A DNA stretch of 64,000 bases from Microbacterium aurugineum (GTDB lineage: Bacteria; Actinomycetota; Actinomycetes; Actinomycetales; Microbacteriaceae), in the NCBI RefSeq assembly GCF_023101205.1, contig NZ_CP078078.1, positions 2,985,411 through 3,049,410 on the forward strand, in the 5' to 3' direction. A model generated the notes under the pieces. That model did not search any database. It was given only the letters and a program-made list of their open reading frames with translations, and had not been told where the DNA came from. The number at the start of each line of letters is the position of its first letter. The stretch's first letter is position 1. The position numbers and the translations under genes are program-made. Shown in pieces: positions 78 to 25,609 of the stretch.

Positions 78-126
78 ACCCTAACAAGGCCTCGTGCGTT
101 CGGTCGATGGGGACAACTCCCCATCG
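78..126 (-). promoter_or_regulatory. Promoter with 23-bp palindromic operator
   Basis: The palindrome at 104-126 reads on the plus strand TCGATGGGGA-N6-CCCATCG. It lies inside a longer perfect 13-bp stem (101-113 with 118-130). On the minus strand it is followed after 20 nt by TAGGGT (78-83), a good TAnnnT -10 box, then about 57 nt to the ATG at 20. The same palindrome with the same 20-nt spacing to a TAGGAT box precedes the large FN3 gene at 22,438. There is no T-run after the stem, so it is more likely an operator than a terminator, although it could also slow transcription leaving the motor gene. Confidence 0.65.
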
Positions 127-131
127 ACCGC

Positions 132-3100
132 CTACTCCTCGACCAGCGGCAGCTGCACCGTGACCTGGCGTCCGGCCTGCACGAAGATGCCTCGTCCTTC
201 GGGGAAGTCGGTGCGCTTCACCTTCGGGAACGGCACCTTGAACACCGCATCGCCGTCGAAGGAGTCGGGCTTGAGGATGATGCCCTTACGCCCGGCTTTG
301 AAGTCTCCGATGAACCCGAAGCCGCTCGTGACCTGCGTGACGTCGGCGTCGCCGATGAGCAGATGGTCGCTGCGGTTGATCGCCTGGAAGAGGGCCTTCA
401 TCTCGCGCTCGGCCGGGCTGTCGGCGAACTGCGGCACGTCCTCGACCACGATCAGCACCCTCGTCGGGAGGGAGTCGTCGGCGATCAGCTCGGTGATCTC
501 CTTGGCGAGCTCCTTCGCATCGTCCGGCGTCACGGCGCTGCGTGTCCAGCTCGCGTAGTCCTTGAGCTGGGCACGTCGGCCTCCGAAGTGGAACAGCACG
601 GTCGCCGGGTCGAGTCGCCGCATCGAGGTGATGATCGACTTGAGGGCGTTGGTCTTGCCCGACGACGGCGGGCCGGCCACGACGAACGTGCCCACCGGGT
701 CGAAGTCGCGCGCCGCCAGGGTGTCCTCCGCGACCCCGAGTGCCGGGAACTCGCCGAGGCGATCGGGCAGATCGCGCACAGACAGACGGGTGGGCAGCGC
801 GCCGATCTCCGGCACCTCCCTCGCTCCGGCCGCACGGAGCCTCTCGGCGAGACCCTCGAGCAGCTTGGTCTGCTCGGCCACATTCGGAGTCCCGCCCAGC
901 GTCGCGATCTGCGTCTCGCGGCCGTCGATGATGGCGCGTCCCGGGGCTGACCGCTCGTCCAGCACATCCTTGGGCGCGTTCAGCATCGCGTATCCGGACT
1001 CATCCGAGAGACGCAGGACCACGCGCCGCGAGACGTTCGCGCTCACCGCCGTGGGGACAGAGCCCGAGCGGTCGGCGCTCGCGACGACGTGCACGCCGAG
1101 CGGGCGGCCCTCGCCGAGGATGCGCATGAAGATCTGATAGAAGGGCATCCGCGCCGTCGTCGACTCCCACTCTCCACGGAACTGCGGGAAGCCGTCGATG
1201 AGCAGGACGATGCGTGCCTCGTCCTGCCCGGTGAGCTCCCGGTACTCCGTGAGGCTGGAAGCGTTGGCGGCACTGAAACGCTTGCCACGGTCGTCGAGCA
1301 CCGCGGCCAGCGAACGCAGCACCCGCTGCACGCGTTCGGAGTCGTCGCCCGAGATGATCGAGCCGACGTGCGGCAGCATCTCCAGGCTCTTGAGCGAACC
1401 GGACCCGAAGTCGAGTCCGTACACCTCGACGTTCGAACGAGCGGGATCGAAACCCGCCGCGATCGCGATCGTGCGCAGCACCGTCGACTTGCCCGAACCG
1501 CTCGTCCCGTAGACGAGCAGCGAGCCGTCCTTGTCGGGGTGGAAGTAGGCCGGCTCCTGAAGCTGCCGTTCCGGGACATCCATCTTGCCGAGCAGCACCT
1601 GCCCGTCGCCGAGCACCGGGAGATCGCGCAGGTCGACCGCGCCCTCGAGGTCGTCGAGCCACGGCCGTCGGGGGGCGGGGATGCGGGCCTCGCGCGCCGC
1701 ATTCACGAGTGTCGCCACGATGCGCTTCTGGTCGTTGGGTCCGAGATCCTCGTCGTGCGAATCGGACTCCGGCGCCTGCTCGGCCTCCCAGGTCTGGATG
1801 GACCCGAAACGGAGCTCGGCGACCTTGACCTCGGCGACCTGGGCCTCGTCCGTGGTCCATCCGCCGGCGTACGCGGACTGGAACGGCACGAGTCGCCCGG
1901 GACCGGTCTTCGCGATACCGCGTCCCGGCAGCGAGGGCGGGAAGGTCGCCGCCACCGGGTCGTCGACGACGTCCTTGGAGTCGGACTCGTCAGCCATCCG
2001 CAGCGCGACGCGCAGGTTCGTGTTCGCGCGGAGGTTGTCCTTGATGACGCCGGCGGGACGCTGCGTCGCCATGATCAAGTGGATGCCGAGGGACCGTCCG
2101 CGCTGCGCGATGTCGACCACTCCGTCGACGAACTCCGGCACCTCTCCGGCGAGCGCCGCGAACTCGTCGATCACCAGCACCAGCGCGGGCGGCGTCTCCG
2201 GGTCGCGTCGCTTCTCGAGCTCGAGGAGGTCTTTGGCCTTCTTGCGGTTGAAGAGGTGCTCACGATGGTGCAGCTCGGCCCGCAGGCTCGTGAGCGCGCG
2301 GCGCACGAGGTGCGGGCTCAGGTCAGTGACGAGGCCGACGGTGTGGGGCAGGTCGACGCAGTCCGCGAAAGCCGAGCCGCCCTTGTAGTCGACGAACAGG
2401 AACGTGACCCGGTCGGGGCTGTGGGCGGCCGCCATGCCGAGCACCCATGCCTGCAGGAACTCGCTCTTGCCGGCACCGGTCGTCCCGCCGACCAGGGCGT
2501 GCGGCCCCTGGGTGCGCAGGTCGAGGGTCATCGCATCCGTCTGCGACTGTCCGATGATGGCGCGCAGGTTGCCGGCCTTTTTGAGCCGCGACTGCGGAGC
2601 GCCGGAACGGTCGATGATGGTGTTGTTCTGCCGCCAGCGATCGATCACCGCGCTGGCATCCTCGGCGACCTCGGTGCCCACGAGCGAAAGGAAGCTGACC
2701 GAGTTCGGGATGTCGGAGGAGTCCTCGATCACCGTGCTGGAATCGACGACCGGCGCCAGGCGCTTGGCGAACATCGTCATGTAGGCGTGCGAGACACCCT
2801 CGACCTGCACCCCGCGGTAGTCCACGCCGCTGCGGACGGTGCCGACCACGGCATCGGAGAGCCCGGCGCTCACGTCGACGAACGTGCGGCACGCCGCGGG
2901 CAGTGCCTCGACGACCGGAGCGACGAACAGGGCGTAGACGCCGACGTCCGCGCCGCGTTCCAGGATCTGGGTCAGTCTGGCCCGATCGACGGGGGCGTCG
3001 TTCGTGATGATCACCAGGATGGCCGTCTGGCCGGGGAACGTCGCCTCCTCGGCCGCGCGCTTGACGTCGGTGCCGTACCGCATCGGATCCCAGTCGGCTC

Positions 3101-4631
3101 CGTACGGGGGCCGCGCAGACTTCGACTCCCGCGAGCGGCGCAGGACGATCTCCTCGAGACCGCTGAGCAGGGCCGTCCCTGTCGAGGCGGAATCCGCTAG
3201 TGGCATCTCCTTGAACGGGTTCCGCTCGCTGGAGGTGTGGGGGAGCCACTTGAGCCAGTCGAGCTCGTTCGCCCACCCCGGTTCGGTCAGCGCCACGGTG
3301 ACGAGTTCGTTCGGGGAGTGCGTGCCGAACAGTTGGACGGCGATCCCCCGCAGCGCATCGCTGGCCAGCGACGTGGGACCGGCGACACCGACCGAGCCCA
3401 CGCTCTGGAGCGATTCCAGGATGGGGACGTCGTCGATCATCCGGTACCGCTCCTCCAGGCGATCGACGCGTTCGACGTATTCGACGAGCGCCTCCGGAGT
3501 CTCGGTGCGCTTGATGCGCGTGCGCGCTTCGGTCTCGCAGACCCCGAGACGCATCGCGAGGAAGTTCCAGTGCTCCGGTCGCCGGGTCCACAGCAGGGGA
3601 CCGAGACGCATGGCCTCATCGAACACCACGGCGACGGCGGGGACCTCGTTCTGCCGTACCTCGCGCTCCTTCGGACGCGAGTGGTACAGCGTCTCCTCCA
3701 GCCGCTCGAACTGCTCCTCGAACGACTCGGCCTCCTTGCGCAGCCGCTGACCGATGTTGGTCTTCTGCGAGATGAAGTTGCCGAACATCATCATCGGCGA
3801 CGCAGCCGCGATGAGCAGCGAAGCCGGACGCTGCGTGATGCTGAACATCGTCACGGCCAGGAGGATCGGCGCGACGAGCATGGGCCAGGGGAACAGCCGC
3901 GACGGCTGGTCGCGGGGATAGCGCGGCTCATCGAGATCCTCCCCGGTGTACCGCTCCTCGACACGGGGGCTGCGGTTGAACATGAGCGCTCCCCCGCGCT
4001 CGAGCACCGGGTCCCCCGTGGCTGAGCCGTCGAAGTCACTCACCATGTGCACGACGAACTCGCAGTCCCCGAGCACGAAGCTCTGCCCGGGGATCACACG
4101 GAGACGCTGCACGAGCCCGCCGTCGACGAGGATTCCGTTCGCCGAGTTCAAGTCGACCAGCTCGACGAACGTCGCGGCGACCTCGATCCTGGCGTGCCGC
4201 TTCGAGACGAGCGGATCAGCGATAGTGACGTCGTTCGCGGCGTCGCGTCCGATCAGGAAGTGACCGATCGGCAGCGGGAACTCCTGCCCGACCGCAGGGC
4301 CGGAGACCACCCGGAGGACGGCGGCGGGGCGCGCACCCACGGTGCCTGCGGCGGCACGGTTCGGGCCGACGTTGACCACCTCGGCGAGGAAGCCGGAGCC
4401 GAGCGGGGCGTCGCCGACGAGCAGGTCGGGATTGAGCATCGTGAGCTGCTCGCTCGTCGGAGGGGCGACGGAGAGCGTGAGCACGTCGGTCGGCGTCGCG
4501 ACGATGCTGCGCGCCGGGTCGGTGGTGGCGATCTGGCGCGCGACATCGGCGATGGTCGCTGTCGAGTCCGCCATCACGACGACGTCGGTCAGGGGTGCTG
4601 CGGGTCGACGCAGGGTCAGCTTGACTCTCAT
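132..4631 (-). CDS. FHA-containing FtsK/SpoIIIE ATPase, EccC/EssC-like secretion motor
   Basis: Predicted membrane-bound motor of a type VII-like secretion system that would thread small helical substrates across the membrane (family knowledge). The 1,499 residues show a short beta-grasp-like N-terminus (1-60), an FHA domain (about 105-195, with GRDAANDV and SKRHARIEV), two membrane segments (about 247-290), and three ATPase domains. ATPase 1 has Walker A GGTTGAGKS (about 714-722) and Walker B LVLVIDEF (about 820). ATPase 2 has GTSGSGKS (about 1045) but IDG in place of IDE. ATPase 3 has GPPSSGKT (about 1324). The layout, FHA plus membrane pair plus three ATPases, resembles EssC/EccC. No EccB, EccD, EccE or mycosin lies nearby. 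It is the last complete gene of the kinase/FHA operon, 43 nt after the RDD-FHA gene. The FHA domain suggests control by phosphothreonine. Confidence 0.88.
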   Translation of the reverse strand: MRVKLTLRRPAAPLTDVVVMADSTATIADVARQIATTDPARSIVATPTDVLTLSVAPPTSEQLTMLNPDLLVGDAPLGSGFLAEVVNVGPNRAAAGTVGARPAAVLRVVSGPAVGQEFPLPIGHFLIGRDAANDVTIADPLVSKRHARIEVAATFVELVDLNSANGILVDGGLVQRLRVIPGQSFVLGDCEFVVHMVSDFDGSATGDPVLERGGALMFNRSPRVEERYTGEDLDEPRYPRDQPSRLFPWPMLVAPILLAVTMFSITQRPASLLIAAASPMMMFGNFISQKTNIGQRLRKEAESFEEQFERLEETLYHSRPKEREVRQNEVPAVAVVFDEAMRLGPLLWTRRPEHWNFLAMRLGVCETEARTRIKRTETPEALVEYVERVDRLEERYRMIDDVPILESLQSVGSVGVAGPTSLASDALRGIAVQLFGTHSPNELVTVALTEPGWANELDWLKWLPHTSSERNPFKEMPLADSASTGTALLSGLEEIVLRRSRESKSARPPYGADWDPMRYGTDVKRAAEEATFPGQTAILVIITNDAPVDRARLTQILERGADVGVYALFVAPVVEALPAACRTFVDVSAGLSDAVVGTVRSGVDYRGVQVEGVSHAYMTMFAKRLAPVVDSSTVIEDSSDIPNSVSFLSLVGTEVAEDASAVIDRWRQNNTIIDRSGAPQSRLKKAGNLRAIIGQSQTDAMTLDLRTQGPHALVGGTTGAGKSEFLQAWVLGMAAAHSPDRVTFLFVDYKGGSAFADCVDLPHTVGLVTDLSPHLVRRALTSLRAELHHREHLFNRKKAKDLLELEKRRDPETPPALVLVIDEFAALAGEVPEFVDGVVDIAQRGRSLGIHLIMATQRPAGVIKDNLRANTNLRVALRMADESDSKDVVDDPVAATFPPSLPGRGIAKTGPGRLVPFQSAYAGGWTTDEAQVAEVKVAELRFGSIQTWEAEQAPESDSHDEDLGPNDQKRIVATLVNAAREARIPAPRRPWLDDLEGAVDLRDLPVLGDGQVLLGKMDVPERQLQEPAYFHPDKDGSLLVYGTSGSGKSTVLRTIAIAAGFDPARSNVEVYGLDFGSGSLKSLEMLPHVGSIISGDDSERVQRVLRSLAAVLDDRGKRFSAANASSLTEYRELTGQDEARIVLLIDGFPQFRGEWESTTARMPFYQIFMRILGEGRPLGVHVVASADRSGSVPTAVSANVSRRVVLRLSDESGYAMLNAPKDVLDERSAPGRAIIDGRETQIATLGGTPNVAEQTKLLEGLAERLRAAGAREVPEIGALPTRLSVRDLPDRLGEFPALGVAEDTLAARDFDPVGTFVVAGPPSSGKTNALKSIITSMRRLDPATVLFHFGGRRAQLKDYASWTRSAVTPDDAKELAKEITELIADDSLPTRVLIVVEDVPQFADSPAEREMKALFQAINRSDHLLIGDADVTQVTSGFGFIGDFKAGRKGIILKPDSFDGDAVFKVPFPKVKRTDFPEGRGIFVQAGRQVTVQLPLVEE

Positions 4632-4674
4632 CGCTCGTCCTCACCGCGCCGGGGGCGCATCTCACTTCTCCGGG

Positions 4675-6030
4675 TCATACCCACTCCACCTGCAGGAACC
4701 GATCGCCGAAGCGCACCGTGTCCCCGGTCCGCAGCTCGGCCGGGTGTCCGGCGGCCAGCGCGGTCTCGACACCGTCTCGGACGATCGCGCTGCCGTTGGT
4801 CGACGCGCGATCGACGATGAACACGCCCCGTCGAGCCGGCATCACCGCGATGTGCGTCTTGGACACCGAACGCGTGTCGTCGACGACCGGGACCAGGAGC
4901 GCTTCGCCCTCGCCGGCTGCCGCGCTCGGCGACCTCCCGAACAGCGTGGTGCCGCGCACCTCGACGCGCTCACCGGTGTCGAGCACGAGAATCGCCCGCA
5001 CTCCGACGGGAACGTTCGGAGCATCGGCGGGCACCGCCGGCACATCGGCGGGAACGGCGGCGGGAGCAGGGACCGGCGGCTCGGGGGCAGGAACCGGCTG
5101 TGCTGCGGGTGCGGGCGCGGGTGGCATCACGGGCGCGGGCGACGCCGCGGGAGCCGGCGCGGGAGCTGGCGGTGCGAACGAAGCCGGGGGCGCGGTGCCG
5201 GTGGCCAGGGAGGGCGGTGTCGACGACACGAGGGAGCCAGGAGCCGGAGTCTCCGGACGCTCAGGGGCAGGTCCCGCGGCGGACCGGTGCGCGCCGATGA
5301 CGCCTCCCGAGAGGCGCGCGCTCGGGACGTACTCGGCCGGAGCATCCCGGTGCACCGGGGTGGCGAGCGACGGGAGGGGCGCCTTCTCCTCGTGCTCGGG
5401 CGTCTTCACACGCTTGCGCGCGATACGCATCCGCTTCTGGTCATAGGGGTTCAAGCCGCCGCGCACGTCCACGAACCAGGTCGCGGCGGCGAGGTCGAGC
5501 CATCCGCGTCCTCGCCGCTCGATGTCGAAGAGCGGGGAGAGCATGATCACCAGTACCGGTCCGATGAGCGGAACGAGGAGCGAGGCGTACGCGACGAGGT
5601 AGCGCACGACCGCGCCCCGCCAGAAGCCGGGACGCTCGAGAGTCCGGACGTTCACGGAACGGATACCGCAGATCGCCTTGCCGAGCGTCACCCCCTTGCG
5701 GCCATGCAGGACGAGCTGGACGACGAGGTAGGCGATCATGAGCCCTTGGGACACCGCAGCGGCCACGATGAGCCACACCAGATCCTCCCGCGCGAAGAAC
5801 TCCTCCGCGTCGAACCGTCCTGACGCCGCCTGCACGAGCACCGGCGTCAGAGCGATGAGGGCCGGGAGGGCGATGATGACCGCCACCGTCCACTCGATGA
5901 GTGCGGCGAGCACACGCGCACCCCGTCCCGCGGGGCGCAGGCCGAGAGCCTCCGCGTACGCAGGGTCCGGGCGTCCGTGCGCGTCGAGTCCTTCGACCTC
6001 GGGCGCGCGGTCGTCGATCTCCCAGATCAC
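4675..6030 (-). CDS. RDD membrane protein with C-terminal FHA domain (first copy)
   Basis: A 451-residue membrane protein. Residues about 35-215 form an RDD domain with several hydrophobic segments and the typical polar start RGARVLAALIEW. A proline/alanine-rich linker follows (about 240-340). The C-terminal FHA domain (about 350-451) has LFGRSP, SKTHIAV and DRASTNGS, the phosphothreonine-recognition signature. RDD function is unsettled; the FHA end should bind phosphorylated partners at the inner membrane face. It starts inside the stop of the FHA-HTH gene (ATGA overlap, 6027-6030). The RDD-FHA gene at 10,421 has the same architecture, so the two are probably paralogues. Confidence 0.85.
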   Translation of the reverse strand: MIWEIDDRAPEVEGLDAHGRPDPAYAEALGLRPAGRGARVLAALIEWTVAVIIALPALIALTPVLVQAASGRFDAEEFFAREDLVWLIVAAAVSQGLMIAYLVVQLVLHGRKGVTLGKAICGIRSVNVRTLERPGFWRGAVVRYLVAYASLLVPLIGPVLVIMLSPLFDIERRGRGWLDLAAATWFVDVRGGLNPYDQKRMRIARKRVKTPEHEEKAPLPSLATPVHRDAPAEYVPSARLSGGVIGAHRSAAGPAPERPETPAPGSLVSSTPPSLATGTAPPASFAPPAPAPAPAASPAPVMPPAPAPAAQPVPAPEPPVPAPAAVPADVPAVPADAPNVPVGVRAILVLDTGERVEVRGTTLFGRSPSAAAGEGEALLVPVVDDTRSVSKTHIAVMPARRGVFIVDRASTNGSAIVRDGVETALAAGHPAELRTGDTVRFGDRFLQVEWV

Positions 6031-6764
6031 TCCTGCTCTCCCTCGACGTCGTCGATGGAATGCTCGGTGTCGAGCAGCGGCAGGTCGCTCTTGCCGACCA
6101 GGCGCGAGGCGATCACATGCTCGACCAGGCGTGCGCGCCTGTTGGTCGCGAAGCTGCGTTGCCCGCCGCGCATGCCGGGCACACCGACCCGGTCGAACTT
6201 GTCGCAGACGTTGTCGAGCTTGCGATTGAACCGGGTGACCGTCCAGCCCAGCCGCTCCGCCGCCTTCGCCGAGGTCGGGATCTCACTCATCCCGGTGCCG
6301 TCCCTGCGCAACTGGGGTTCGGCGAGCGCCAGGATGAGCAGCTTCTGGCTGAGGGTCAGCGGGACGTCGCCGATCGTGGACGCCCCGTCGTCGTCGTGCT
6401 CGCGCCTGGTCGCGCGAAACGTCGGCTCCGCCGCATGCAAGGTGAGCTCGTAGGTGGTCGGCCCCGCGCTGAAGACGATCGTCGTCTTCTCGAAGACGAG
6501 CGGGAGCCGAGCACCCGGCGCCAGCCACGCCTGCACGCCACCTGCCGAGTCGGTCACCGTCGCGGTGAGCCGGGTACCGACGTTCGACAGCCACCACAGC
6601 CCGTCGGAGTCGGTGATCTCCAGGAAGTGCCGATGCAGGAACAGATTGTCGTCGAGCTCGAGGTCGCCCTCGCGTCCCACGATGAATCGATCACCACGGC
6701 TCACGCGGAAGTACTCCCCCGCGAACTCGACGGTCACCCCTCCTGCACTCGTCACTCCACACAC
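6027..6764 (-). CDS. FHA protein with C-terminal helix-turn-helix region
   Basis: 245 residues, no signal peptide or membrane segment. Residues about 8-115 look like an FHA-type domain (FIVGREGDLELDDNLFLHRHFLEI). Residues about 137-205 look like a winged-helix DNA-binding domain: LTLSQKLLILALAEPQ followed by SAKAAERLGWTVTRFNRKLD. It overlaps the kinase gene by 13 nt and the RDD-FHA gene by 4 nt. An FHA sensor on a DNA-binding domain, next to a kinase and a phosphatase, makes it the obvious candidate to bind the palindromes at 104-126 and 22,540-22,562. That link is inferred. The ATG at 6764 is used; a GTG four codons in is also possible. Confidence 0.78.
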   Translation of the reverse strand: MCGVTSAGGVTVEFAGEYFRVSRGDRFIVGREGDLELDDNLFLHRHFLEITDSDGLWWLSNVGTRLTATVTDSAGGVQAWLAPGARLPLVFEKTTIVFSAGPTTYELTLHAAEPTFRATRREHDDDGASTIGDVPLTLSQKLLILALAEPQLRRDGTGMSEIPTSAKAAERLGWTVTRFNRKLDNVCDKFDRVGVPGMRGGQRSFATNRRARLVEHVIASRLVGKSDLPLLDTEHSIDDVEGEQE

Positions 6765-8380
6765 CCCCGCACGGTTTCCGAGGCACGACCGTCGTCGCGC
6801 CGCAGCATCACGTCGATGCAGACGGTGCCCGCCGCTGCGGGGACCGTCGCGGTCGCCTCCGGCGTCTGGTGCGGATCGACCTCTCCCGACACCGCGACCG
6901 GTGTCCAGATGAACGAGTCGCCCTCGAGCGGACTCGGATTGGTCCAGGTGAACACGATCCGATCGCCCTCGCGCGTCCCGGAGATCTCGGTGACCTTCGG
7001 CACGACGTCCGTGCCGACGTCCTTTGGCTCCACGGCCTGCTCGGTCTCCTGCGCTTCGGGGGTGACACCCGCCACCAGGAGGTTCATCCCGACGATCCCG
7101 CCGACCACGAGTACGACCGCGGCGGCAGCGAGCACGATCCAGAGGCCCTTGCGACTGCGCGGCGCCGGCGGCTCTCCCGGACCCGCGACAGGAGCAGCCG
7201 TCACGGCCGGAGGCGGCGTCGCCTCTTCCGGGGCGACCACCATCGGCGCTCGCGCGATGGTGCGGTCGTCGGCGGAGGGGGCGAGTGGAGCCGCGGCCGT
7301 CGGAGTCGGCGGGCGCAACTGGGTCTGCTCGACGAGCGGTTCCTCGGGCGTCGGGGCGTCGAATCGCGGAATGCCCGACAGCGGAACCGGCGGTTCCTTT
7401 CGCTGCGTCTGGGCTGAGGGGCGAGTGAACGATGCCAGTTCGGGGTCGATGCTGACGATCTCCCGCACGCGGGTCAGACCGTCGCCGTCGTCCTCCAGGT
7501 CTTCCGCCGGCGGATGGTCATCGACGATGTCGATCGGGGTCACCGAGTGGGAGAGCTCGATCTGCACCTTCTGCAGTGCCCGCGCGAATGCCACCGCACT
7601 CGGGAAGCGATCGGCGGGGTTCTTCGCCATCGACCGTTCGAGGAGCCTCTGCAGACTCTCCGGCGAATCCGGCCTCTTCAGTGAGGGGAGAGCGGCGCGC
7701 TCGATGCGCTCGATCAGATCGGCGCTCGAGTTGCGTTCGCCGGTCCGCTCGAAGGGCGAACGACCCGCCAGCAGCGTGTACAGCGTGGCGCCGAGCGCCC
7801 AGACATCGGTGCGCGGACCACTCTGCGGAGGCTCCGCGAACGACTCCGGCGGAGACCAGGGGATGGACATGCCGGAGGCCTCACCCGTCGCTCCGGTCGT
7901 CGATGCGATGCCGAAGTCGGTGAGGGCCGGCCGGTTGTACTCCGTGACGAGGATGTTGGCCGGCTTGATGTCGCGATGCAGCACGCCCGCCCGGTGCGCG
8001 GTCTCGACGGCTCCGGCGACCTGGATGCCGACGCGCAGAGCCTCGGCGACCGAGAACGGCTCCTTGCGGGAGCGGATCTGGAGGTTCGGCCGCGGGCAGT
8101 ACTCCATCACCAGGTAGGGGCGACCGTCGCCGGCGACACCCGCCTGGTAGATCGTGACGATGGCCGGATGCGTCGAGAGCATCGCCATCACGTTGGCCTC
8201 GTCGGCGAACTCCTGCGCCGCACCACTCGAGATGCGGTCGGCGACCAGCACCTTCACCGCGACTCGGCGACGCGGCATCTCCTGCTCGTACAGGAAGACA
8301 TCGGCGAAACCGCCGGTGCCCAGCGGCTCCACATAGGTGAAGCCCGGCAGATCGGGCGGCGGGGAGGGGCGACGCGTCAC
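6752..8380 (-). CDS. Transmembrane Ser/Thr protein kinase (Pkb2-like)
   Basis: 542 residues. The cytoplasmic kinase domain (about 10-270) has the glycine loop LGTGGFADV, the ATP lysine in VAVKVL, the catalytic HRDIKPAN (Asp near 137) and DFG. A proline/alanine-rich juxtamembrane region follows, one membrane segment (about 415-437, WIVLAAAAVVLVVGGIVG) and a roughly 100-residue outer domain resembling a single FN3-type beta sandwich, with no PASTA repeats. In bifidobacteria the kinase of the equivalent cluster is called Pkb2. It should phosphorylate the FHA proteins and other operon products, opposed by the PP2C gene at 9,606. The start overlaps the previous stop (ATGA). Confidence 0.93.
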   Translation of the reverse strand: MTRRPSPPPDLPGFTYVEPLGTGGFADVFLYEQEMPRRRVAVKVLVADRISSGAAQEFADEANVMAMLSTHPAIVTIYQAGVAGDGRPYLVMEYCPRPNLQIRSRKEPFSVAEALRVGIQVAGAVETAHRAGVLHRDIKPANILVTEYNRPALTDFGIASTTGATGEASGMSIPWSPPESFAEPPQSGPRTDVWALGATLYTLLAGRSPFERTGERNSSADLIERIERAALPSLKRPDSPESLQRLLERSMAKNPADRFPSAVAFARALQKVQIELSHSVTPIDIVDDHPPAEDLEDDGDGLTRVREIVSIDPELASFTRPSAQTQRKEPPVPLSGIPRFDAPTPEEPLVEQTQLRPPTPTAAAPLAPSADDRTIARAPMVVAPEEATPPPAVTAAPVAGPGEPPAPRSRKGLWIVLAAAAVVLVVGGIVGMNLLVAGVTPEAQETEQAVEPKDVGTDVVPKVTEISGTREGDRIVFTWTNPSPLEGDSFIWTPVAVSGEVDPHQTPEATATVPAAAGTVCIDVMLRRDDGRASETVRGCVE

Positions 8381-9606
8381 GGCAGCTCCTCGAACGCGAC
8401 GGTCACTCCGTCGCCGAGATCCACGACATCGCCGGACAGCACGAGCGTCTGCTCCCCGGGATGCAGCCGCACCGGGTCGGCACCGGGACGGAGCAGGGTG
8501 GAGCCGTTCGTGGTGTGCAGGTCGATGACCACGACGGTGTCACCTTCCGGCCGCACTTCGAGGTGGCTGCGCGAGATGTCCTGCTGCGGGCTCTCGACGG
8601 CGATCAGGTGCGGGAGGTTCGCACCGCTCGCACGGGTCGATCGCGGGCGTCGGCCGATGATGACCGTGCGATCGAGCGCCGCCACCTGACCGGTGGAGAG
8701 ACGCACGCGGCCCGTCGAAGCGATGGACGGCACCGGGGTCACGTCGAGCACGTCGGTCGCGACATCATCGGCGACGGGAGGCTGCTGGCGGAGCGCACGC
8801 AGGTCGGCCGCGGAGACGGTCGCCCCGTCATGATCGCCTTCGACCGGGACGGGGGTGGGCGCCGCGGCTGCGGCACCGACCGAGTGCACGGTCGCACCCC
8901 AGAGCTGATCGAAGTCGTCGTCGACGGGCGGTGCGAGCGTCACCTCGGTCGGTGGGAGGAACGCATCCTCGATGACCGGCGCAGGAGTCGGCTCGGGTTC
9001 GGGCGCAGGAGTCGGCTCGGGCTCGGGCGCCGGCTCGGGCTCCACGGCCGCCGGCTCCGGCGCCGGCTCGGGCTCCACGGCCACCGGCTCCGGGGCCTGC
9101 ACGGCTGCAGCGGGTTCGGCGAGCACGGGGGCCGGGCCGAGCGCACTGGTCAGCGGATCGGCGTCGCTCGGCTCGAGCTCGGCGCTCACCGCGGCAGCCC
9201 GCACGATCCCGCTCTGCACGGGGAGGCCGTCGGCCTCGGTCGTCGTCTCGACCGTGATGTCGATCGTCGTCGCGCCACCGAGGAACCGCTCGTTCCAGGT
9301 GGTGACGTCCGCCCCGGACAGCTCGAGGGATTCCGTCGCGGTCGTCACGTGTGCCGAGACGTCACCTCGGAGGGCGATGCGCACGTCTCCTCCCTCGGCG
9401 ACGGCGGCGACGAACGACGGCAACGACGTGAAGGACCGGCCCGCCTGCGTCGTCAGGAGATCGACGACGGTTGCGAGCGTCTTCGCCTCCGGCAGCCGTT
9501 CCCACAGCCGGGCGACGACATCGCCGGGGACATCGGGCGGGAGCGCGACGAGCGCGCCGGGGATGACGATCAGGTACCACTGTCCCGGTCGGTAGATGGT
9601 CTGCAT
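8377..9606 (-). CDS. FHA-domain protein with unknown N-terminal domain
   Basis: 409 residues, apparently cytoplasmic. Residues 1-150 form a compact domain I do not recognise (starts MQTIYRPGQWYLIVIPG) that recurs in actinobacterial kinase/FHA clusters. Residues about 160-220 are a low-complexity PEPEPAPEP linker. The C-terminal FHA domain (about 295-409) has VIIGRRP, ISRSHLEV and DLHTTNGS. The gene lies between the phosphatase (1-nt overlap, TGATG) and the kinase (4-nt overlap), so it is probably translated together with both and acts as their adaptor or substrate. Confidence 0.85.
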   Translation of the reverse strand: MQTIYRPGQWYLIVIPGALVALPPDVPGDVVARLWERLPEAKTLATVVDLLTTQAGRSFTSLPSFVAAVAEGGDVRIALRGDVSAHVTTATESLELSGADVTTWNERFLGGATTIDITVETTTEADGLPVQSGIVRAAAVSAELEPSDADPLTSALGPAPVLAEPAAAVQAPEPVAVEPEPAPEPAAVEPEPAPEPEPTPAPEPEPTPAPVIEDAFLPPTEVTLAPPVDDDFDQLWGATVHSVGAAAAAPTPVPVEGDHDGATVSAADLRALRQQPPVADDVATDVLDVTPVPSIASTGRVRLSTGQVAALDRTVIIGRRPRSTRASGANLPHLIAVESPQQDISRSHLEVRPEGDTVVVIDLHTTNGSTLLRPGADPVRLHPGEQTLVLSGDVVDLGDGVTVAFEELP

Positions 9607-14097: not shown

Positions 14098-15355
14098 GCG
14101 AGAACCTTCTGCAGAGCGAGCGGAATCTGTTCGAGCGCGCCGACGGTGACCACGTCCGCGTCACCGATCCGCCGAAGCGTCGGAGCGGACACGCTGGTGT
14201 CGGCGACGACGGCCAGCGCCTTCGCGCCGAAGGGCAGCCGCGAGCACGCGAGGCGCAGATCGTCGGAGCGCACCCGCGAGCCGCACACGAGCACCACCAC
14301 ACTGGCGAGAGGCATCGTGACCGACACGATCCCGGCGAGGTCGGCGATGCCGCCCTCGCGCGGCTTGCTGCCCTCGACGGCGGAGAGGGAGTCCAACAGC
14401 TGCTTTCCGGTGCCGGCCGGGAGCTCGCGCCCCTGCACGCGCACGTCGACGCGCTGCGAGTCGCGGAGCGCGCGGAGGCCGATCGAGCCCGCGGCCGAGA
14501 TACCGAGCTCGAAGTCCTCGGCGGTCGCGTAGTCGGACAGCGAGCGCGACAGACCGATCACGAAGTGGGAACGCCGCGTCTCCTCGTACTGGCGGACCAT
14601 CATCGTGCCGGTGCGGGCGGTCGAACGCCAGTGCACATGACGCAGGTCATCGCCCGGCTGATACTCCAGAAGCGCGTGGAAGGAGACGTCGTCGCGCGAG
14701 AGGTCCGTGGCCGGAAGCCCCTCCAGGTCGCGCAGGTAGCCGAGGGACTGTCCGTCGAACAGCACGGTGCGCGGATGCACGAACAGGTCCACCGGGTCGT
14801 CGCGGCGGTGCGCCCGTTCGAAGAGACCGAGCGGGTCTCCGCGCACGACACTCACGGGTCCGACCTTGACGACGCCGCGCTTCTGGGTCGGGATGGCGAA
14901 GAGCTCCTCCGCCTCCTCTCCGGGGGCCAGGCGCTGGATCCCGAACTCCCCACGACCGGCCCCCACCGGGAGCACCACGCGCGAGGGCAGGATCGCCCTG
15001 TTGCCACGGTTGGCGAGGGTGAGTGCGCCGACCGCGCGCTCGCCCACCACCACACGGGTGCGGGCGAGGTCGAGCGACACGTCGTAGGCGGTGCGGCCGA
15101 TGAGGAACAGCGCGCACAGGGTGACGGCGATCGCGATCACAACGGCGGCGACCGTGAACTCCGCCCAGCCGGCGATCTGTCCGAGCACCCAGAACACGAT
15201 GGCGAGGGACATCAGCACCCACGCGAGCGGACGGATCGCCGCGGTGATCTTCCGGAGGCGCGTCAGGGCACGGGCACCGAGGACGGCCGCGATGTCACGC
15301 CATCCGGCGTCGCGTTCCGTCGGCGGCGTCGACGCCTGAAGGGCCTCCGCGGTCA

Positions 15356-15356
<1 letters not shown>
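14094..15356 (-). CDS. DUF58 protein
   Basis: 420 residues. Two membrane helices near the N-terminus (about 43-90, PLAWVLMSLAIVFWVLG and FTVAAVVIAIAVTLCALFLIG), a beta-rich middle, then the DUF58 signature FHALLEYQPGDDLRHVHW followed by RSTARTGTMMVRQYEE (about 225-262) and a von Willebrand A-like C-terminal part. DUF58 proteins accompany MoxR ATPases and transglutaminase-fold proteins; they are thought to be part of an assembly or chaperone complex, with unknown substrate. It starts with a 1-nt overlap on moxR (15356) and overlaps the next gene by 4 nt. Confidence 0.9.
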
Positions 15357-16327
<971 letters not shown>

Positions 16328-16363
16328 GGGAGTACTGCTTCCTCTCGGATGGAAGGGGCGCCG

Positions 16364-19300
16364 CTACCAGGCACGGCGTTCGTAGTCGGTGTTGCCGATC
16401 GTGACCCACACCTCGTAGCCACGGCCACCCGCGCCGTGGAAGCAGCCGATCTCGATGGAACCGTTGGCGGGGATGTTCCAACTCGAGCCGCCCGCGAACT
16501 TCGGTCCTGCGAGTGGCGCATTGCTGTTGCACCAGACCTGGTACCTCCCGGCAGGGAAGTTCGAGGTGTTGATGACGAACTTCGCGCAGGTGCCGTCGGT
16601 GCACTGCCCTGGCCAGTTCCCGGCCGTGCCTCTCGTCACCCAGGCACGGGGCTGCGGCGGGGGCGAAGAGGTCGCGGATGCGGTCCCACTGGGATCGGAC
16701 CAGGCGCCCGTCGAGTCCTGCGCGCGGGCGCGGATCGAGTGCGTCTGGCTGTGCCCGTTCCCGACGTCGGTCGAGCCGGTCTTGCTCACGTTCTGCCAGC
16801 CGCCGCCATCGATGCTGATCTGCACGTTCTCGATGGGTCGTCCGTTGTCGGAACCGTTGGCGTTCCACTTCAGACGCACCTGGGTGGAGAGCGGATCCGC
16901 GCTGACCGACGGGGCGTGCGGCTTGCCGTACGGCTTGCCGCTGGCCGACTTCGATGCGGCTCCCGCGTACGTGGAGCCGCTGACGTTCGCGACGGCGCGC
17001 ACCTCGACACTGTAGGAGGTTCCGTTGGTCAGTCCACCGATCTTCTGGTTTCCGGGAAGGGCCGACCATCCGCCGCCGCCGTTCAGACGGTACTGGTAGC
17101 TGATCTCGTTGCTCGCCGCCCCACCGCTGGAACCGGCGTTGAAGGCGAGGGTGAGACTGCGATCCCCGTCCGTGACCTTCAGGCCCGTCGGCGCTCCCGG
17201 CGGGATGACCCCGCGGCGAGGGGCCGACTGCGCACTCATCTCGCCCCACCCGGCCTTGTTGTAGGCCTGGATGCGGTAGGTGTACGGGGTCTGGGAGGGT
17301 TGGACCTGGATGGCCTGGCTCCGCGCCTCGGGCCCGGGGGTCAGCGTGTTCACGACCTGGCCGCCCTGCAGGATCTCGAGACGGTATACCTGGATGGCGT
17401 CACCGTTGTTGTCGGGCGCGACCCAGTTCACCTGCATCTGGGCCTGGTCGCCGACCGGGGCGAGCTCGGTCGTCGTGGGCGCGGCGGGAGCCTTCGGCGG
17501 GCCGGCCGGGATCTCGGAGGCGGACCAGCCGCTCCAACTGGAGGGGTCGGGGGCCCTGTTGTGCGCCTGGACCCGCACCTGGTAGTCCGAGCCGTTCTCG
17601 AGCCCTTCCCACGTGGTGGAGTTGCCCGTGACCTCCTTCTGCGTGACGCCGGACGGCGGCGCGGGCGAGATCTCGAGCGTGTACCGCTCGACCGGCGAGC
17701 CCGGGGTGCTCGGCGTCTTCCAGGCCACCTTGAGGGACTTGTCCCCGAAGTCCAGAGAGGGCGGGTTCGGTGTGTCGGGACGCGCATCGGGCCGCGCCGG
17801 AGCGGAGGCCGCGGAGGGCTGCGACTCGCCCACACGGTTGGTCGCGGTCACCTGGAACGTGTATTCGACGTTGTTGGTGAGGCCGTCGAGCGTGCACGTC
17901 GTGGACTGGCACTCCTTGGTGTACGGGTTCCCGCCCACGGACCTCACGGTGTACTTCGTGATCTCGGCTCCGTTGTTCGACGGCGCGGAGAACGACACCA
18001 CGACCGTGCGGTCCTGCACGCTCGCGATGACCGGAACCCCGGGCGCGTCCGGAACGTCCTGCACCGTGACGACGATCTGTCCGTTGACCTCCCGATCGGG
18101 GTCCTCCGTCGCGTCCTGGATGCGATAGCGGACGACGAGCGTGCCCACGAACGACTTCGTCGGAGTGATGGTCACCTGGTCGTCGGTGAAGCCGACCTCG
18201 CCGCCGCCGGACTCGGTCACCGCGGACACGATCTTCAGCGGGGTCTCGGGGAACGGGTTGAAGTCGTTGGCGAGAGCGGGGACCGTGATGGTCTCGCCCG
18301 CATCCGCTTCGGAGATGGTGTCGGTGTTGGCCGCGGGCATGGGACGGGTCGATGCTGTGACGAGCACCGTGACGGTGCCCTCCACCGGCTCGGTCGTGCC
18401 GTCGGACACGCGGAGCTTCAGCGTGACCGTCGTCCCCTTCTTGGCGTTCGACGACGCTTCCACGCGGAGTTCGTCGCCGTCGACCCGCGCGGAGACGCCC
18501 TTGCCCTCGCCGCCGACGAGTGCGTAGTCGTGCTTCCCCTTGTCTTCGGGGTCGGGGTCGTCGGTCAGCGCGGCGAGGTCCAGCGCCACCGCCGATTCAC
18601 CGGGTGCCACGTTGACCTGTCCCTGGACGAACGTCGGCTGCTGGTTCTCCGGCGGCAGCACGTTGATGGGGATGCTGAGCGTGGCCTTGCGCCCCTCCGG
18701 GTCGTCGGGCCCATCGCCGTCCGTGACCTCGAACGTGAGCGCGTCGGGCCCGAAGTAGCCGTCGGCGGACGTGTAGACCAGTGTCTTCGCGTCTTGGAGG
18801 AGATCTGCGCCGTCGGCATGGCTCGCGCTGATCTTCGCCTTCTCGGTGATGACGACGTCGCCGCCGCCCGCCACCGTCACGTACTTCGACAGCGGCAGGA
18901 TCTCGGTCTCGCCACTGACCACTTCGAGCGGCTTCGTCGACGTGAGCGTCGGGCGAAGGTCTGCCCGCGAGGGGACGAAGATGAACGCCGACGCCTGCAG
19001 GTCGTCGCGGTCGGTGAGGGTGTACCGGATCAACTGCAGCTCGTCCGTGACGGTGACGCGCACCTTCCCGTTCTCGAGCCGTGTGCCGCCTTCGCCGACA
19101 TCGACCGTGAGCCGGTCGGTCGTGCCGTCCGGGTCTTCGTCATTGGCCAGGATGTCGAGGTCCGCGGTCAGTCCGCCGTCCTTCAGATCCGCGGGCTGCA
19201 ATCGGTCGTCGCGTGCGACGGGAGCTTGCAGGGGAACGTCTTCGTCGACCGTGATCTGCAGGGTCGCCATCGCCGTCGCCCCGCGGGAATCCGACACGGT

Positions 19301-22300
19301 GTACTGCAGCGAGGTCTCGGTGGGCGCGTCGGGTGCCTGAACGAGCACGCGGTCACCGGAGACCCGCGCATCCAACCCCTCCGGAAGCTCGAGCCCGTCC
19401 TTGACGAGGGAGACCTTGTCGCCCTCGGGATCGGAGTCGTTCGCGAGGACGGGCACGGCGATCTCACGCCCCGGTCGCACGACCACGGCGTCCTTCACCG
19501 CATACGGCGGCTGGTTGATCTCCTCCGCGGGGGCGATGCCGACGCGGATCGTGGCGACGCCCTCCTTGCCGAGGCGATCGCGCACGCGGTACTTGAACAC
19601 GTCGACGCCGGACGCCCCGTCGAACGCTTCGTACGTGAAGTAGTTCGGCCCGTTGAGCACCCGTCCCTTGCTCGGACTCGAATCGAGGCCGACCAGCTCC
19701 ACGGAGTCGCCGTCGGTGTCGATGCCGTCCAGCGGGACGGCGATGTTCACCTCGGTGCCGGCGAGCGTGCGCGCCACGAGGTCTTGAGGACGCGGAGCGG
19801 CGTTCTTCTCCTCGTCGATCGGCAGGATCTGGATGGTGACGTAGCCGGCGGCCTTCTGCTGGCGCGAGTCGACGACCTCATAGGTGAGGTACACCGTCTT
19901 GGCCTCCGGGCCCGCTTTGAAGCGCACCGCGTCCTGCGAGACGAACGCCTCGCCGTCCTCCGGGTCGACGAAGGGCTCGATGAGCTCCGGCTCGAGGTGC
20001 ATGACGTCGTCGCTGGGATGCGTGTCGTTGTCGAGCACCGGGATCGTGACCACATCGCCGGCGCGCACGGTCGCCGTATCCGGGTTGGCGATCGGCTGGA
20101 GGAGTTCGTCCGGCGCGGGGATGGGGATCACCACGACCTCACCCTCGGCCGACTTCGAGCCGTTCGAGATCCGGTACTTGATCCGCACCTGCTCCTCGAG
20201 CGCTCCCTGATCGGTGATGCGCAGCGTCTCGTGGTTGAGCACCGAGACCGAGATGCCGCTGTTCGGCTCCAGCGACACCGACTGCACCACGAGGATCCCC
20301 CCGCCGGGATCGGTGTCGTTGTTGAGCACGCCGAGCAGCACATCCCCGCCGGTGGGCAGGAGCGCGACGTCACGAACGGCGACCGGCGGGAGGTCGGTCT
20401 CCGATTCGGGCATCACGTCGACGCGGACGAGACCCTCGCCGTTCTTGGGCCCGGTGGTGACCTGGTACTGCACGTAGTAGACCCCGGCCTTCTCCGCCAT
20501 GAAGGAGAAGGTCTTGTTCGGGGTGTTCGGGATGATCGTCGCGCCCGGGGTGTCGAGAACCCGGCTGAGGCGCAGCGGCTCGCGGGAGGTGCTCGTGTCA
20601 TTCGCCGTCGGCGCGATGGTGACCTGCTCGCCCACCTTGGTGATGACGTGGTCGGCGTTGGTCTTCGGGTTGGTCGAGCCCTGCGGCCGGACATCGAGCG
20701 CGATCGTCGACGTGCCCAGCTTTCCGAAGGCGTCCGCCACGGTCACCTGCACGTCTTTGCGTCCTTGCAGGCTGGCGGTGGCCTTGTAGGTGATCTGACC
20801 GTCCTTGCTGAAGTCGACCTCGTCGCCGGGAGCCGCGATCACCTCCTTCAGATAGATGTCGTCGCCGTCAGGATCGATCCAGTCGGGGAGGATGTTGTAC
20901 GAGATCGTGCCGCCGGTCTCCACGGCGAGCGCGGTCTTGCGCTTGGGCGTCGGAGCGCCGTTCTCGTTCCAGTCGTGCACGGCGAGCGACACGACGGCCG
21001 TGTCTTTGCCCCCGCGTCCGTCGTCGACCTCATAGGTGAAACTCGCGGTACCGGAGGCCTTCTCTTCGACGGCGATCTGGAGCGAGCCGCCGTTGTTGAT
21101 CGGCTGGACGGTGCCGATCGCGGGCTGCGCCTCGGCGAGGGCCGCGACGAGCACATCCCCGTCGGGGTCGTTGTCGTTGTCGAGCACGGGGAGCAGCGTC
21201 GTGGCACCCGGCCGCACACCGTAGGAGTCGTCCTCCGCGATCGGCGGGGTGTTCTGCTCGCTGCGCTCCGGAAGGGTGGTCTCGACGGTCTCCTCGGTCG
21301 AGTCCTCCTCGTTCTCCGTCTCGCCCTCGGGCGGAGTCAGGTCGTTCCAGTTGTCGACGCGCTGCAGGCTCTCGTTGGCCATCCAGGCGGCACCGCCGAC
21401 GGCATCGTTGAGGATGATCACGTCCCGGTTCACGCGGAAGGTCAGGTTCGCGGAATCCTCTGCTCCCTCGATCGGGGAGTTCACGTCGTTGGAATCGCCG
21501 GGGCATTCCCGGATGAAGGTCGCCGAACCCGCCCAGGCACCGTAGGTGCAGCCGCGGAGCCAGACCGGTGCGGCGGCCGTACCCGCGCTCCCGGCCGAGG
21601 TCTCTTCGGGGTCGCTGCCGTCGAGCGGCACACGCACCAGAGCGGACGGGGTGGCGATCGCGACCGCGTCGTTCGCGGCGGACGCCTGTTGCAGCACGGC
21701 ATCCTTCGCGCCCGGGACCTCCGTGCGGAAGCCGCCCGGGGTCGTGACGACGCCCGCCGCCTCGTCGAACACCACGGGCGTGCGACCCACGGCGGTGATC
21801 GTCGGCTTCGCGGCCGCATCGACCTCGCCGACCGAAGCCGTGGAGGTGTCCCGCGGCGCACCTTCGTTGTCGACGGGAACGGTCACGACCTCGCCGCGCT
21901 CGGCGGAGAGTGCGAACACCGTGCCGTCATCGGCGACGGTGACGTCGGCGTTCTCGCCCAGCTCGGCGACGGGTTCCGCCGCCTCGATCTCGAACGACGC
22001 GATGCCCTTCACCGGGACGACCCAGAGATCTCCGGACTTCTCATCCAGGATCGCCGCCGTGTTCGCACCCATCGCGACCTTGGCGGTGGAGGGGATGATC
22101 GCCGAATCTCCGAGCGAGACCCGTGCCGGGTCGATCGCCGTCACGGTCGATGCACTCTCGTCGACGACGAGCACGTTCGCTGCGGCCTGGAGGATGTCGT
22201 AGTTCTCGCTCGTGGTGCGCAGACCGCCGTCGAGGACCGTGGACTCGTTGTTGAAATGCCCGACGAGCAGGCTCGAGGTCTTGGTGATCCAGACGCCGCC

Positions 22301-22438
22301 GTCGTTCAGGTCGACCTTGGTGGTCGGGAACCCTTCATACGTGAAGGCCATCGTGGTGAGGGCGATGACCCCGACCGTGACACCCGCCGCGGACGCCAGC
22401 GTCTTCGGTCGCGCGCGCATCCATGACAACGCCTTCAT
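16364..22438 (-). CDS. Giant membrane-anchored Ig-like/FN3 surface protein
   Basis: 2,024 residues. A short basic cytoplasmic start and one membrane helix (about 14-32, ASAAGVTVGVIALTTMAFT) anchor it facing out. Residues about 35-400 look like a beta-propeller. About eleven repeats of roughly 95 residues follow, each marked by a calcium-type loop such as DNDNDPDGD, NNDTDPGGG or ANDSDPEGD, as in cadherin-like/Ig-like bacterial repeats. Then come five FN3 domains (about 1460-1930). A C-terminal domain of about 95 residues carries four cysteines (QCTDGTC, YQVWCN, EIGCF). There is no LPxTG. It is the first gene of the operon and corresponds to the FN3 gene of the bifidobacterial PFNA cluster. Role inferred: adhesion, or an external scaffold for the secretion and signalling complex. 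Confidence 0.9.
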   Translation of the reverse strand: MKALSWMRARPKTLASAAGVTVGVIALTTMAFTYEGFPTTKVDLNDGGVWITKTSSLLVGHFNNESTVLDGGLRTTSENYDILQAAANVLVVDESASTVTAIDPARVSLGDSAIIPSTAKVAMGANTAAILDEKSGDLWVVPVKGIASFEIEAAEPVAELGENADVTVADDGTVFALSAERGEVVTVPVDNEGAPRDTSTASVGEVDAAAKPTITAVGRTPVVFDEAAGVVTTPGGFRTEVPGAKDAVLQQASAANDAVAIATPSALVRVPLDGSDPEETSAGSAGTAAAPVWLRGCTYGAWAGSATFIRECPGDSNDVNSPIEGAEDSANLTFRVNRDVIILNDAVGGAAWMANESLQRVDNWNDLTPPEGETENEEDSTEETVETTLPERSEQNTPPIAEDDSYGVRPGATTLLPVLDNDNDPDGDVLVAALAEAQPAIGTVQPINNGGSLQIAVEEKASGTASFTYEVDDGRGGKDTAVVSLAVHDWNENGAPTPKRKTALAVETGGTISYNILPDWIDPDGDDIYLKEVIAAPGDEVDFSKDGQITYKATASLQGRKDVQVTVADAFGKLGTSTIALDVRPQGSTNPKTNADHVITKVGEQVTIAPTANDTSTSREPLRLSRVLDTPGATIIPNTPNKTFSFMAEKAGVYYVQYQVTTGPKNGEGLVRVDVMPESETDLPPVAVRDVALLPTGGDVLLGVLNNDTDPGGGILVVQSVSLEPNSGISVSVLNHETLRITDQGALEEQVRIKYRISNGSKSAEGEVVVIPIPAPDELLQPIANPDTATVRAGDVVTIPVLDNDTHPSDDVMHLEPELIEPFVDPEDGEAFVSQDAVRFKAGPEAKTVYLTYEVVDSRQQKAAGYVTIQILPIDEEKNAAPRPQDLVARTLAGTEVNIAVPLDGIDTDGDSVELVGLDSSPSKGRVLNGPNYFTYEAFDGASGVDVFKYRVRDRLGKEGVATIRVGIAPAEEINQPPYAVKDAVVVRPGREIAVPVLANDSDPEGDKVSLVKDGLELPEGLDARVSGDRVLVQAPDAPTETSLQYTVSDSRGATAMATLQITVDEDVPLQAPVARDDRLQPADLKDGGLTADLDILANDEDPDGTTDRLTVDVGEGGTRLENGKVRVTVTDELQLIRYTLTDRDDLQASAFIFVPSRADLRPTLTSTKPLEVVSGETEILPLSKYVTVAGGGDVVITEKAKISASHADGADLLQDAKTLVYTSADGYFGPDALTFEVTDGDGPDDPEGRKATLSIPINVLPPENQQPTFVQGQVNVAPGESAVALDLAALTDDPDPEDKGKHDYALVGGEGKGVSARVDGDELRVEASSNAKKGTTVTLKLRVSDGTTEPVEGTVTVLVTASTRPMPAANTDTISEADAGETITVPALANDFNPFPETPLKIVSAVTESGGGEVGFTDDQVTITPTKSFVGTLVVRYRIQDATEDPDREVNGQIVVTVQDVPDAPGVPVIASVQDRTVVVSFSAPSNNGAEITKYTVRSVGGNPYTKECQSTTCTLDGLTNNVEYTFQVTATNRVGESQPSAASAPARPDARPDTPNPPSLDFGDKSLKVAWKTPSTPGSPVERYTLEISPAPPSGVTQKEVTGNSTTWEGLENGSDYQVRVQAHNRAPDPSSWSGWSASEIPAGPPKAPAAPTTTELAPVGDQAQMQVNWVAPDNNGDAIQVYRLEILQGGQVVNTLTPGPEARSQAIQVQPSQTPYTYRIQAYNKAGWGEMSAQSAPRRGVIPPGAPTGLKVTDGDRSLTLAFNAGSSGGAASNEISYQYRLNGGGGWSALPGNQKIGGLTNGTSYSVEVRAVANVSGSTYAGAASKSASGKPYGKPHAPSVSADPLSTQVRLKWNANGSDNGRPIENVQISIDGGGWQNVSKTGSTDVGNGHSQTHSIRARAQDSTGAWSDPSGTASATSSPPPQPRAWVTRGTAGNWPGQCTDGTCAKFVINTSNFPAGRYQVWCNSNAPLAGPKFAGGSSWNIPANGSIEIGCFHGAGGRGYEVWVTIGNTDYERRAW

Positions 22439-22513
22439 TCCCGGTTTCCCCCCCAGGGTGACACTCTGTGATCACTCGTGCGCGGGCCCGTCTGGCCGAC
22501 GACGCACCCGTTC

Positions 22514-22562
22514 ATCCTAACCGCGTGCCCGAGGACCGCTCGATGGGGAGTAGTACCCATCG
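22514..22562 (-). promoter_or_regulatory. Main operon promoter with 23-bp palindromic operator
   Basis: The palindrome at 22,540-22,562 (plus strand TCGATGGGGA-N6-CCCATCG) is identical in both arms to the one at 104-126. On the minus strand it is followed after exactly 20 nt by TAGGAT (22,514-22,519), a -10 box. The leader to the ATG at 22,438 is about 70 nt. With a start site near 22,507 the operator would span about -33 to -55, overlapping the -35 region, a position typical of activators that contact sigma. Confidence 0.7.
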
Positions 22563-25420: not shown

Positions 25421-25509
25421 GTCTCTTCCTTGGAGTTGGTCGACCGCACATCTCGGCCGAGGCAGGGTGGAGAATCTCCGGGTCTCTTCCGAGCATGCGG
25501 AGCGAAAGT

Positions 25510-25521
25510 AGTCATGACAAC
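25510..25521. promoter_or_regulatory. Candidate GntR operator, site 1
   Basis: AGTCATGACAAC with palindromic core GTCATGAC, in the divergent region between the metallophosphoesterase and the GntR gene, 90 nt upstream of its start. GT-N4-AC is the general shape of HutC-subfamily operators. An identical 12-mer occurs at 25,598. Confidence 0.5.
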
Positions 25522-25597
25522 TTTTTGCCGCAGTATTCTCGAAGTGTTCACCGACATGAGGCAGAGTGGCCCTGGCTGGCAGCGTCGAGGAGCGAGA

Positions 25598-25609
25598 AGT
25601 CATGACAAC
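25598..25609. promoter_or_regulatory. Candidate GntR operator, site 2, over the start codon
   Basis: A second AGTCATGACAAC. Its palindromic core GTCATGAC contains the ATG (25,602) of the GntR gene, so binding here would block the regulator's own expression. Autoregulation is inferred. Confidence 0.5.

Follow-up and report, generated by a model that had tools for sequence, protein, structure and literature searches.

EmbR of Mycobacterium tuberculosis is an FHA-domain transcription regulator tied to the Ser/Thr kinase PknH, DosR/NarL-type binding sites are the known comparison for LuxR/NarL-like palindromes, and DegU carries a receiver domain. Among regulators of type VII secretion, phosphorylated DegU (DegU~P) is required for the Ess system of B. 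subtilis (PMC3701619), and EspM is a 363-residue protein with two HTHs and a helical bundle that represses whiB6 as part of ESX-1 control (PMC7002343, PMC11005418). In Bifidobacterium, descriptions of the PFNA operon list a kinase, an FN3 protein, an AAA ATPase, a DUF58 protein, a transglutaminase, a phosphatase and an FHA protein (PMC8430577, PMC6803598). Here we describe a palindromic promoter element and its candidate regulator, the 245-residue FHA-HTH protein, in a type VII-like secretion region of Microbacterium aurugineum; the window analysed is the 64-kb stretch 2,985,411-3,049,410 of its 3.63-Mb, single-contig genome (NZ_CP078078.1).

As in EmbR, an FHA domain occurs here in a regulator linked to a Ser/Thr kinase, but EmbR has another DNA-binding domain and other target genes. 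In contrast to DosR/NarL sites, the palindrome has the arm sequence ATGGGGA, and the FHA-HTH protein has no receiver domain. Where DegU has the partner DegS (PMC3701619), the protein described here has an FHA domain and a prospective Ser/Thr kinase partner. EspM is the nearest described regulator, sharing the N-terminal FHA domain, the C-terminal HTH and the control of a type VII secretion system, but it differs by its greater length (363 versus 245 residues), its two HTHs and its repression of whiB6. The string "palindrom" does not occur in PMC7002343, and the NCBIfam model of EspM (NF052403) does not report the FHA-HTH protein; a weak EspM match falls in the FHA region of the secretion motor. 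The operon in the window resembles the bifidobacterial PFNA cluster, with kinase, fn3, AAA ATPase, DUF58 and transglutaminase genes found together by Pfam, plus an EssC-like motor. The accessible PFNA descriptions mention no EccC/EssC-like motor or WXG100 genes (PMC8430577), and the word "promoter" is absent from the text of that paper. In the open-licence literature we found no description of the motif, of the regulator or of the regulation of these secretion clusters. We consider it likely that the FHA-HTH protein binds the palindrome as its operator and activates the type VII-like secretion genes.

A palindrome at fixed distance from a -10-like hexamer

The first-pass annotation had reported a palindrome at positions 104 and 22540 of the window, each with a hexamer at identical minus-strand spacing, and both places were recovered. 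Copy 1 (104-127) reads TCGATGGGGACAACTCCCCATCGA and is a perfect 24-bp dyad; copy 2 (22540-22562) reads TCGATGGGGAGTAGTACCCATCG and is an imperfect one. The proposed length of 23 bp thus fits the right copy and falls one base short for the left, and the proposed variable centre of six bases narrows to four when sites are compared, giving ATGGGGA-N4-TCCCCAT. No further intergenic copy had been noticed, which our scans bear out. Within the window, a search allowing up to 3 mismatches returned four matches, the two places on both strands, whereas shuffled windows averaged 0.67 matches and reached four in 0/100 shuffles; a scan with up to 5 mismatches and TANNNT at offset 22/23 gave no third copy in the window. 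The copies had also been said to mark both ends of one operon. Copy 2 does precede the fn3 operon, but each copy heads its own minus-strand unit, and the impression is partly an effect of the window, whose edge cuts off the next minus-strand unit on the left.

Across the genome, the 22-bp pattern occurs at 10 places with up to 3 mismatches, against 1 for the reversed pattern, and five of the ten lie within 2,976,375-3,007,972, the secretion region. Three extra copies, with cores at 8378, 11454 and 12484 of locus L007, stand to the left of the window at distances of up to 9.2 kb (L and G numbers denote loci and genomes). In all five secretion-region copies, TANNNT starts 23 nt past the 18-bp core when the minus strand is read, as TAGGGT in three, TAGGAT in one and TATCGT in one.

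The same arrangement recurs throughout the genus. With at most 1 mismatch, a 20-bp pattern was present in 75/149 Microbacterium genomes and its reversed control in 1. The exact 20-bp palindrome misses variant sites and performs less well as a detector than ATGGG-N8-CCCAT plus a -10; the promoter pattern ATGGG-N8-CCCAT-N22/23-TANNNT was found in 89/149 genomes, its reversed control again in 1. For the geometry we used 172 sites from Microbacterium and close kin, picked by the palindrome alone among the matches listed, with identical 318-bp contexts removed. They came from 46 of the 75 matching genus genomes, the window, L007, L008, three other regions of the M. aurugineum genome and 25 named motor loci (Microbacterium, Agrococcus and two labelled Actinomycetota). 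TANNNT started 22 nt past the core in 49 cases and 23 nt past it in 92, while every other offset up to 69 nt accounted for at most 7 sites, with a small second group at 29-33. By this spacing 143/172 sites could be oriented, none ambiguously, and 29 could not; after thinning at 60% or more flank identity, 117/140 kept a TANNNT at 22/23 nt.

A separate observation concerns a second spacing class, in which five genomes have the palindrome flanked by a DUF2510 gene and an ABC-ATPase/FtsX pair (L008 at about 4943; L120, L129, L135 and L162 at about 4001), with a conserved TATACAT some ten bases beyond the usual -10 position. Another set lies in flagellar loci (L074 at about 4000; L133, L159 and L164 at about 4001): the palindrome of M. 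aurugineum itself is 5' of a sigma-70 factor gene beside flagellin, and those of other genomes adjoin an flhA-like gene, in 2/3 together with flgN-flgK-flagellin. A link of secretion and motility through these sites is possible.

The genes downstream of the oriented promoters are largely type VII-like substrates. A gene was called for 120/143 promoters (23/143 gave no call) as the best-scoring frame starting within 350 nt, a procedure that may skip a short first gene and does so at L007 17518. WXG100 proteins of about 98 residues form the largest family (52), followed by WXG-like proteins of about 112 residues (17), proteins of about 470 residues (16), a same-cluster relative of which matches Pfam T7SS_signal at 3.1e-8, proteins of about 565 residues (7), whose single scanned member has an alpha/beta hydrolase domain, and a family of 5 with WXG100_2 in both scanned members. 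The remainder comprises families of 4, 3 (FN3) and 3, and 13 singles, some of which are probably wrong frames. The first-pass annotation had suggested scanning related genomes for hits near FN3 and WXG100-type genes with a -10 at fixed distance, and this check came out positive, both in spacing (143/172) and in the genes reached (WXG100, WXG-like, larger substrates and the FN3 operon).

Association of the sites with the FHA-HTH gene

In the many actinobacteria where it marks type VII-like secretion genes, the element is seen mostly where the FHA-HTH gene of the same operon is present, and for this reason that protein is probably the switch. It occurs in 96/149 Microbacterium genomes, and the promoter pattern was found in 86/96 genomes with it and 3/53 without it. 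The motor (at least 40% identity, fragments included) is a weaker predictor, with promoters in 72/83 genomes carrying it and 17/66 lacking it. Splitting by both genes gives 72/77 for genomes with both, 14/19 for FHA-HTH only, 0/6 for motor only and 3/47 for neither; the genome lists for these tables and for those outside the genus were transcribed by hand, with totals that agree with tallies where given, and the 83 motor genomes were picked by hand. Other sampled Microbacteriaceae show promoters in 86/106 genomes with FHA-HTH and 2/187 without (by genus, in a hand count, 31/37 and 1/47). In other families of the order the figures are 74/114 and 6/160; seven of the FHA-HTH positives are weak matches, with E values from 1e-11 to 1e-18, and without them the first figure is 74/107; four of the six FHA-HTH-negative hits outside the family are one similar sequence, unlike the consensus, from one genus.

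Physical linkage points the same way. Among the matches listed outside the genus (137 sites and 59 regulator places, two G198 sites omitted), 56/137 family sites are no more than 25 kb from the regulator gene, against an expectation of about 2, and many of them are only 4-5 kb from it; a site this close is present in 44/59 genomes. The co-occurrence, seen within the genus and beyond it, and this linkage support the earlier guess that the FHA-HTH protein is the binder. The link is a strong association rather than proof, as the genomes are related and other cluster genes co-travel.

The element also occurs in clusters whose regulator and motor are apart. We examined the sequence flanking the regulator on either side in 20 genus genomes, 18 of them without a match to the 20-bp pattern. 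In 18/20 the motor was absent from the stretch downstream, which covered about 15 kb (7 kb in G009); in six (G005, G022, G043, G078, G099, G116) it lies 7-20 kb away on the other side, and the remaining genomes with the two apart have it far away or on another contig, or gave no motor. Variant palindromes of the usual spacing occur around these regulators as well: exact ATGGG-N8-CCCAT cores had TANNNT at 22/23 twelve times and elsewhere once (24 strand-readings, some places counted double). Nine stretches contain an fn3 N-terminal match. In four of them (G017, G068, G083, G110), where the motor is elsewhere or was not found, a site of the usual spacing precedes fn3 by 100-220 bp. G068 has a further site about 20 bp past its motor on a different contig, and such marking of unlinked loci is what a trans-acting regulator would need.

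Several observations weigh against assigning the sites to the FHA-HTH protein. G037 and G111 each carry three promoter matches, and even a profile search found no FHA-HTH protein in either. Ten FHA-HTH-positive genus genomes lack the exact promoter pattern. The fn3 site, present in four of the nine stretches, is not general: G007 and G113 have a palindrome without the usual spacing, and G008, G015 and G119 gave no site by the criteria used. The first of these points would be expected if the operator of the same regulon were bound by a regulator encoded elsewhere, with the FHA-HTH gene co-travelling for other reasons, and palindromes in flagellar loci and by the DUF2510 gene without the usual spacing are likewise what a broader regulator would give. 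We regard this alternative as unlikely, since promoters occur in 0/6 genomes that have the motor and lack FHA-HTH, since three nested samples (genus, family and order) agree on the FHA-HTH association, and since the FHA-HTH protein alone, among the eleven genes at 132-22438, shows a candidate sequence-specific DNA-binding domain.

In G037 (L117, L118) and G111 (L170, L171, L172), 4/5 fetched palindromes have the usual -10, and neither regulator nor motor was found. Three of the five precede type VII-like substrate genes, two of them in G037 and one, before a WXG100_2 protein, in G111. Two G111 palindromes are about 250 bp or less from a contig end, so sequence may be missing there.

Predicted fold and promoter architecture

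The predicted model of the FHA-HTH protein supports both proposed domains. Its beta domain (residues 10-111) matches FHA domains (best 6ccd, E 6.6e-5), placing an FHA fold rather than a receiver domain in the N-terminal half, and the helical domain from residue 138 resembles LuxR/NarL HTHs, including the DosR and NarL structures. Sequence searches were less telling: the protein had no Pfam match at 1e-3 and no NCBIfam match at 0.01, Pfam GerE matched none of 7 FHA-HTH proteins scanned, whose sole Pfam HTH matches were HTH_8 at 0.017 and 0.25, under the cut-off, and PDB sequence searches with the whole regulator and with its C-terminal domain gave nothing useful. By inspection, the phosphothreonine-pocket residues typical of FHA domains are only partly present. 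In several genomes of other genera or families (G157, G221, G334, G418, G653, G722, G582, G694 and others), the matched frame of the regulator contains one stop codon.

Taking the hexamer's first T as -12 places the core at about -53 to -36 (centre near -44), and the bases after it, CGACGG-like, make a poor -35, far from TTGACA. Both this position and the poor -35 fit an activator role, and the layout fits a dimeric activator that would touch polymerase beside the -35. Repression by the bound FHA-HTH protein has a precedent in EspM, which likewise combines FHA and HTH domains, regulates a type VII system and represses whiB6 (PMC7002343, PMC11005418), but we think it quite improbable here: with the hexamer as -10, the core is upstream of the -35 in 143/172 sites and not over the -10 or the start, and a promoter with such a -35 should be weak unaided. 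The tight 22/23 spacing might also suggest that both boxes form the promoter of an alternative sigma factor with the right arm as its -35, a very remote prospect that we reject, since places found by the right arm plus -10, without the far arm, nevertheless carry it (124/140, at 6-7 of 7 bases) and TANNNT is of the housekeeping type. That reverse search matters because both arms were the selection criterion for the palindrome-chosen sites, whose arm conservation proves little; it used only TCCCCAT and a -10 at 22/23, on fetched loci that were mostly fetched for their palindromes, and a control 20 nt further upstream matched the left arm in 0/140.

Returning to activation by the FHA-HTH protein, a dimer would bind ATGGGGA-N4-TCCCCAT through its LuxR/NarL-like C-terminal domain, centred near -44, and, placed beside the weak -35, would recruit housekeeping RNA polymerase to the TAGGGT-like -10. 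The copy before the fn3 operon would drive the genes of the regulator, kinase, phosphatase and motor, presumably transcribed as one unit, and so provide feedback; the other copies would drive WXG100 and larger substrate genes, so that the secretion machine would be produced jointly with its cargo. Coupling of the switch to Ser/Thr phosphorylation by the kinase and PP2C phosphatase of the operon is probably the role of the N-terminal FHA domain.

The secretion region and its significance

WXG100 genes adjoining an FtsK/SpoIIIE motor identify the region as type VII-like (Table 1). The motor scores below all curated NCBIfam cut-offs (EssC, 556.8 against 778.4 bits; EccCa, 343.8 against 509.15; EccCb, 336.5 against 346.55), and by these it is assigned to neither the EccC-type (T7SSa) nor the EssC-type (T7SSb) class of type VII secretion systems. 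The closest named motor loci are from Microbacterium (sp. CBA3102, 100%, and M. paraoxydans, 98%, in the best segment). The two WXG100 genes of L007, about 4 kb apart, agree at 287/288 bases and have near-identical promoters, the mark of a recent duplication or conversion. The small WXG-like genes there had no match in the Pfam scan, and the larger proteins of their two units form one family. L007:7485-7952, at the distal end of the substrate region, encodes a 155-residue protein with a weak resolvase N-terminal match, whose cluster occurs in 11 loci.

Table 1. Features of the window and of locus L007 (aa, amino acids)
Feature	Position	Strand	Basis or context
Palindrome copy 1	104..127 (18-bp core 107-124)	minus	5' of unit starting past left window edge
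Minus-10-like hexamer TAGGGT	78..83	minus	23 nt past 18-bp core of copy 1
EccC/EssC-like motor, 1499 aa, FHA-like N terminus, FtsK/SpoIIIE domains	132..4631	minus	Pfam PF01580 4.2e-59
RDD-FHA membrane protein	4675..6030	minus	Pfam
FHA-HTH protein, 245 aa, proposed palindrome binder	6027..6764	minus	co-occurrence and predicted fold
Ser/Thr protein kinase	6752..8380	minus	Pfam Pkinase 2.9e-41
FHA-domain protein	8377..9606	minus	Pfam
PP2C phosphatase	9606..10508	minus	Pfam
RDD membrane protein	10421..11704	minus	Pfam
Transglutaminase-like membrane protein (TgpA_N, Transglut_core)	11701..14097	minus	Pfam
DUF58 protein	14094..15356	minus	Pfam
MoxR-type AAA ATPase	15356..16327	minus	Pfam AAA_3 1e-62
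2024-aa protein, Big_9/cadherin-like and fn3 domains, first operon gene	16364..22438	minus	Pfam
Minus-10-like hexamer TAGGAT	22514..22519	minus	23 nt past core of copy 2
Palindrome copy 2	22540..22562 (core 22543-22560)	minus	5' of fn3...eccC operon
Large predicted calcineurin-like phosphoesterase	22622-26107	minus	just 5' of fn3 operon promoter
WXG100 genes	L007:8007-8294 and 12113-12400		palindrome 5' of each; PF06013 3.8e-10 for both
Small WXG-like gene, then larger protein	L007:11043-11399, then 9717-11033		palindrome 5'
WXG-like 119-aa open reading frame, then 453-aa protein	L007:17102-17461, then 15816-17177		3' of copy 1

More broadly, we put forward tentatively that FHA-HTH proteins make up a large class of transcription factors dependent on Ser/Thr phosphorylation, in which FHA takes the place of the receiver domain of response regulators, and that they run a conserved, order-wide type VII regulon through a shared 18-bp operator; the flagellar sites would then tie secretion to motility. 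The analysis names a candidate regulator, and yields a readable code for the promoters, of secretion clusters whose regulation we found nowhere described in the open-licence literature; the code permits genome-wide prediction of substrates, including those far from the motor. If the proposed mechanism is true, Ser/Thr kinase signalling would be linked to type VII secretion by direct protein-DNA contact.

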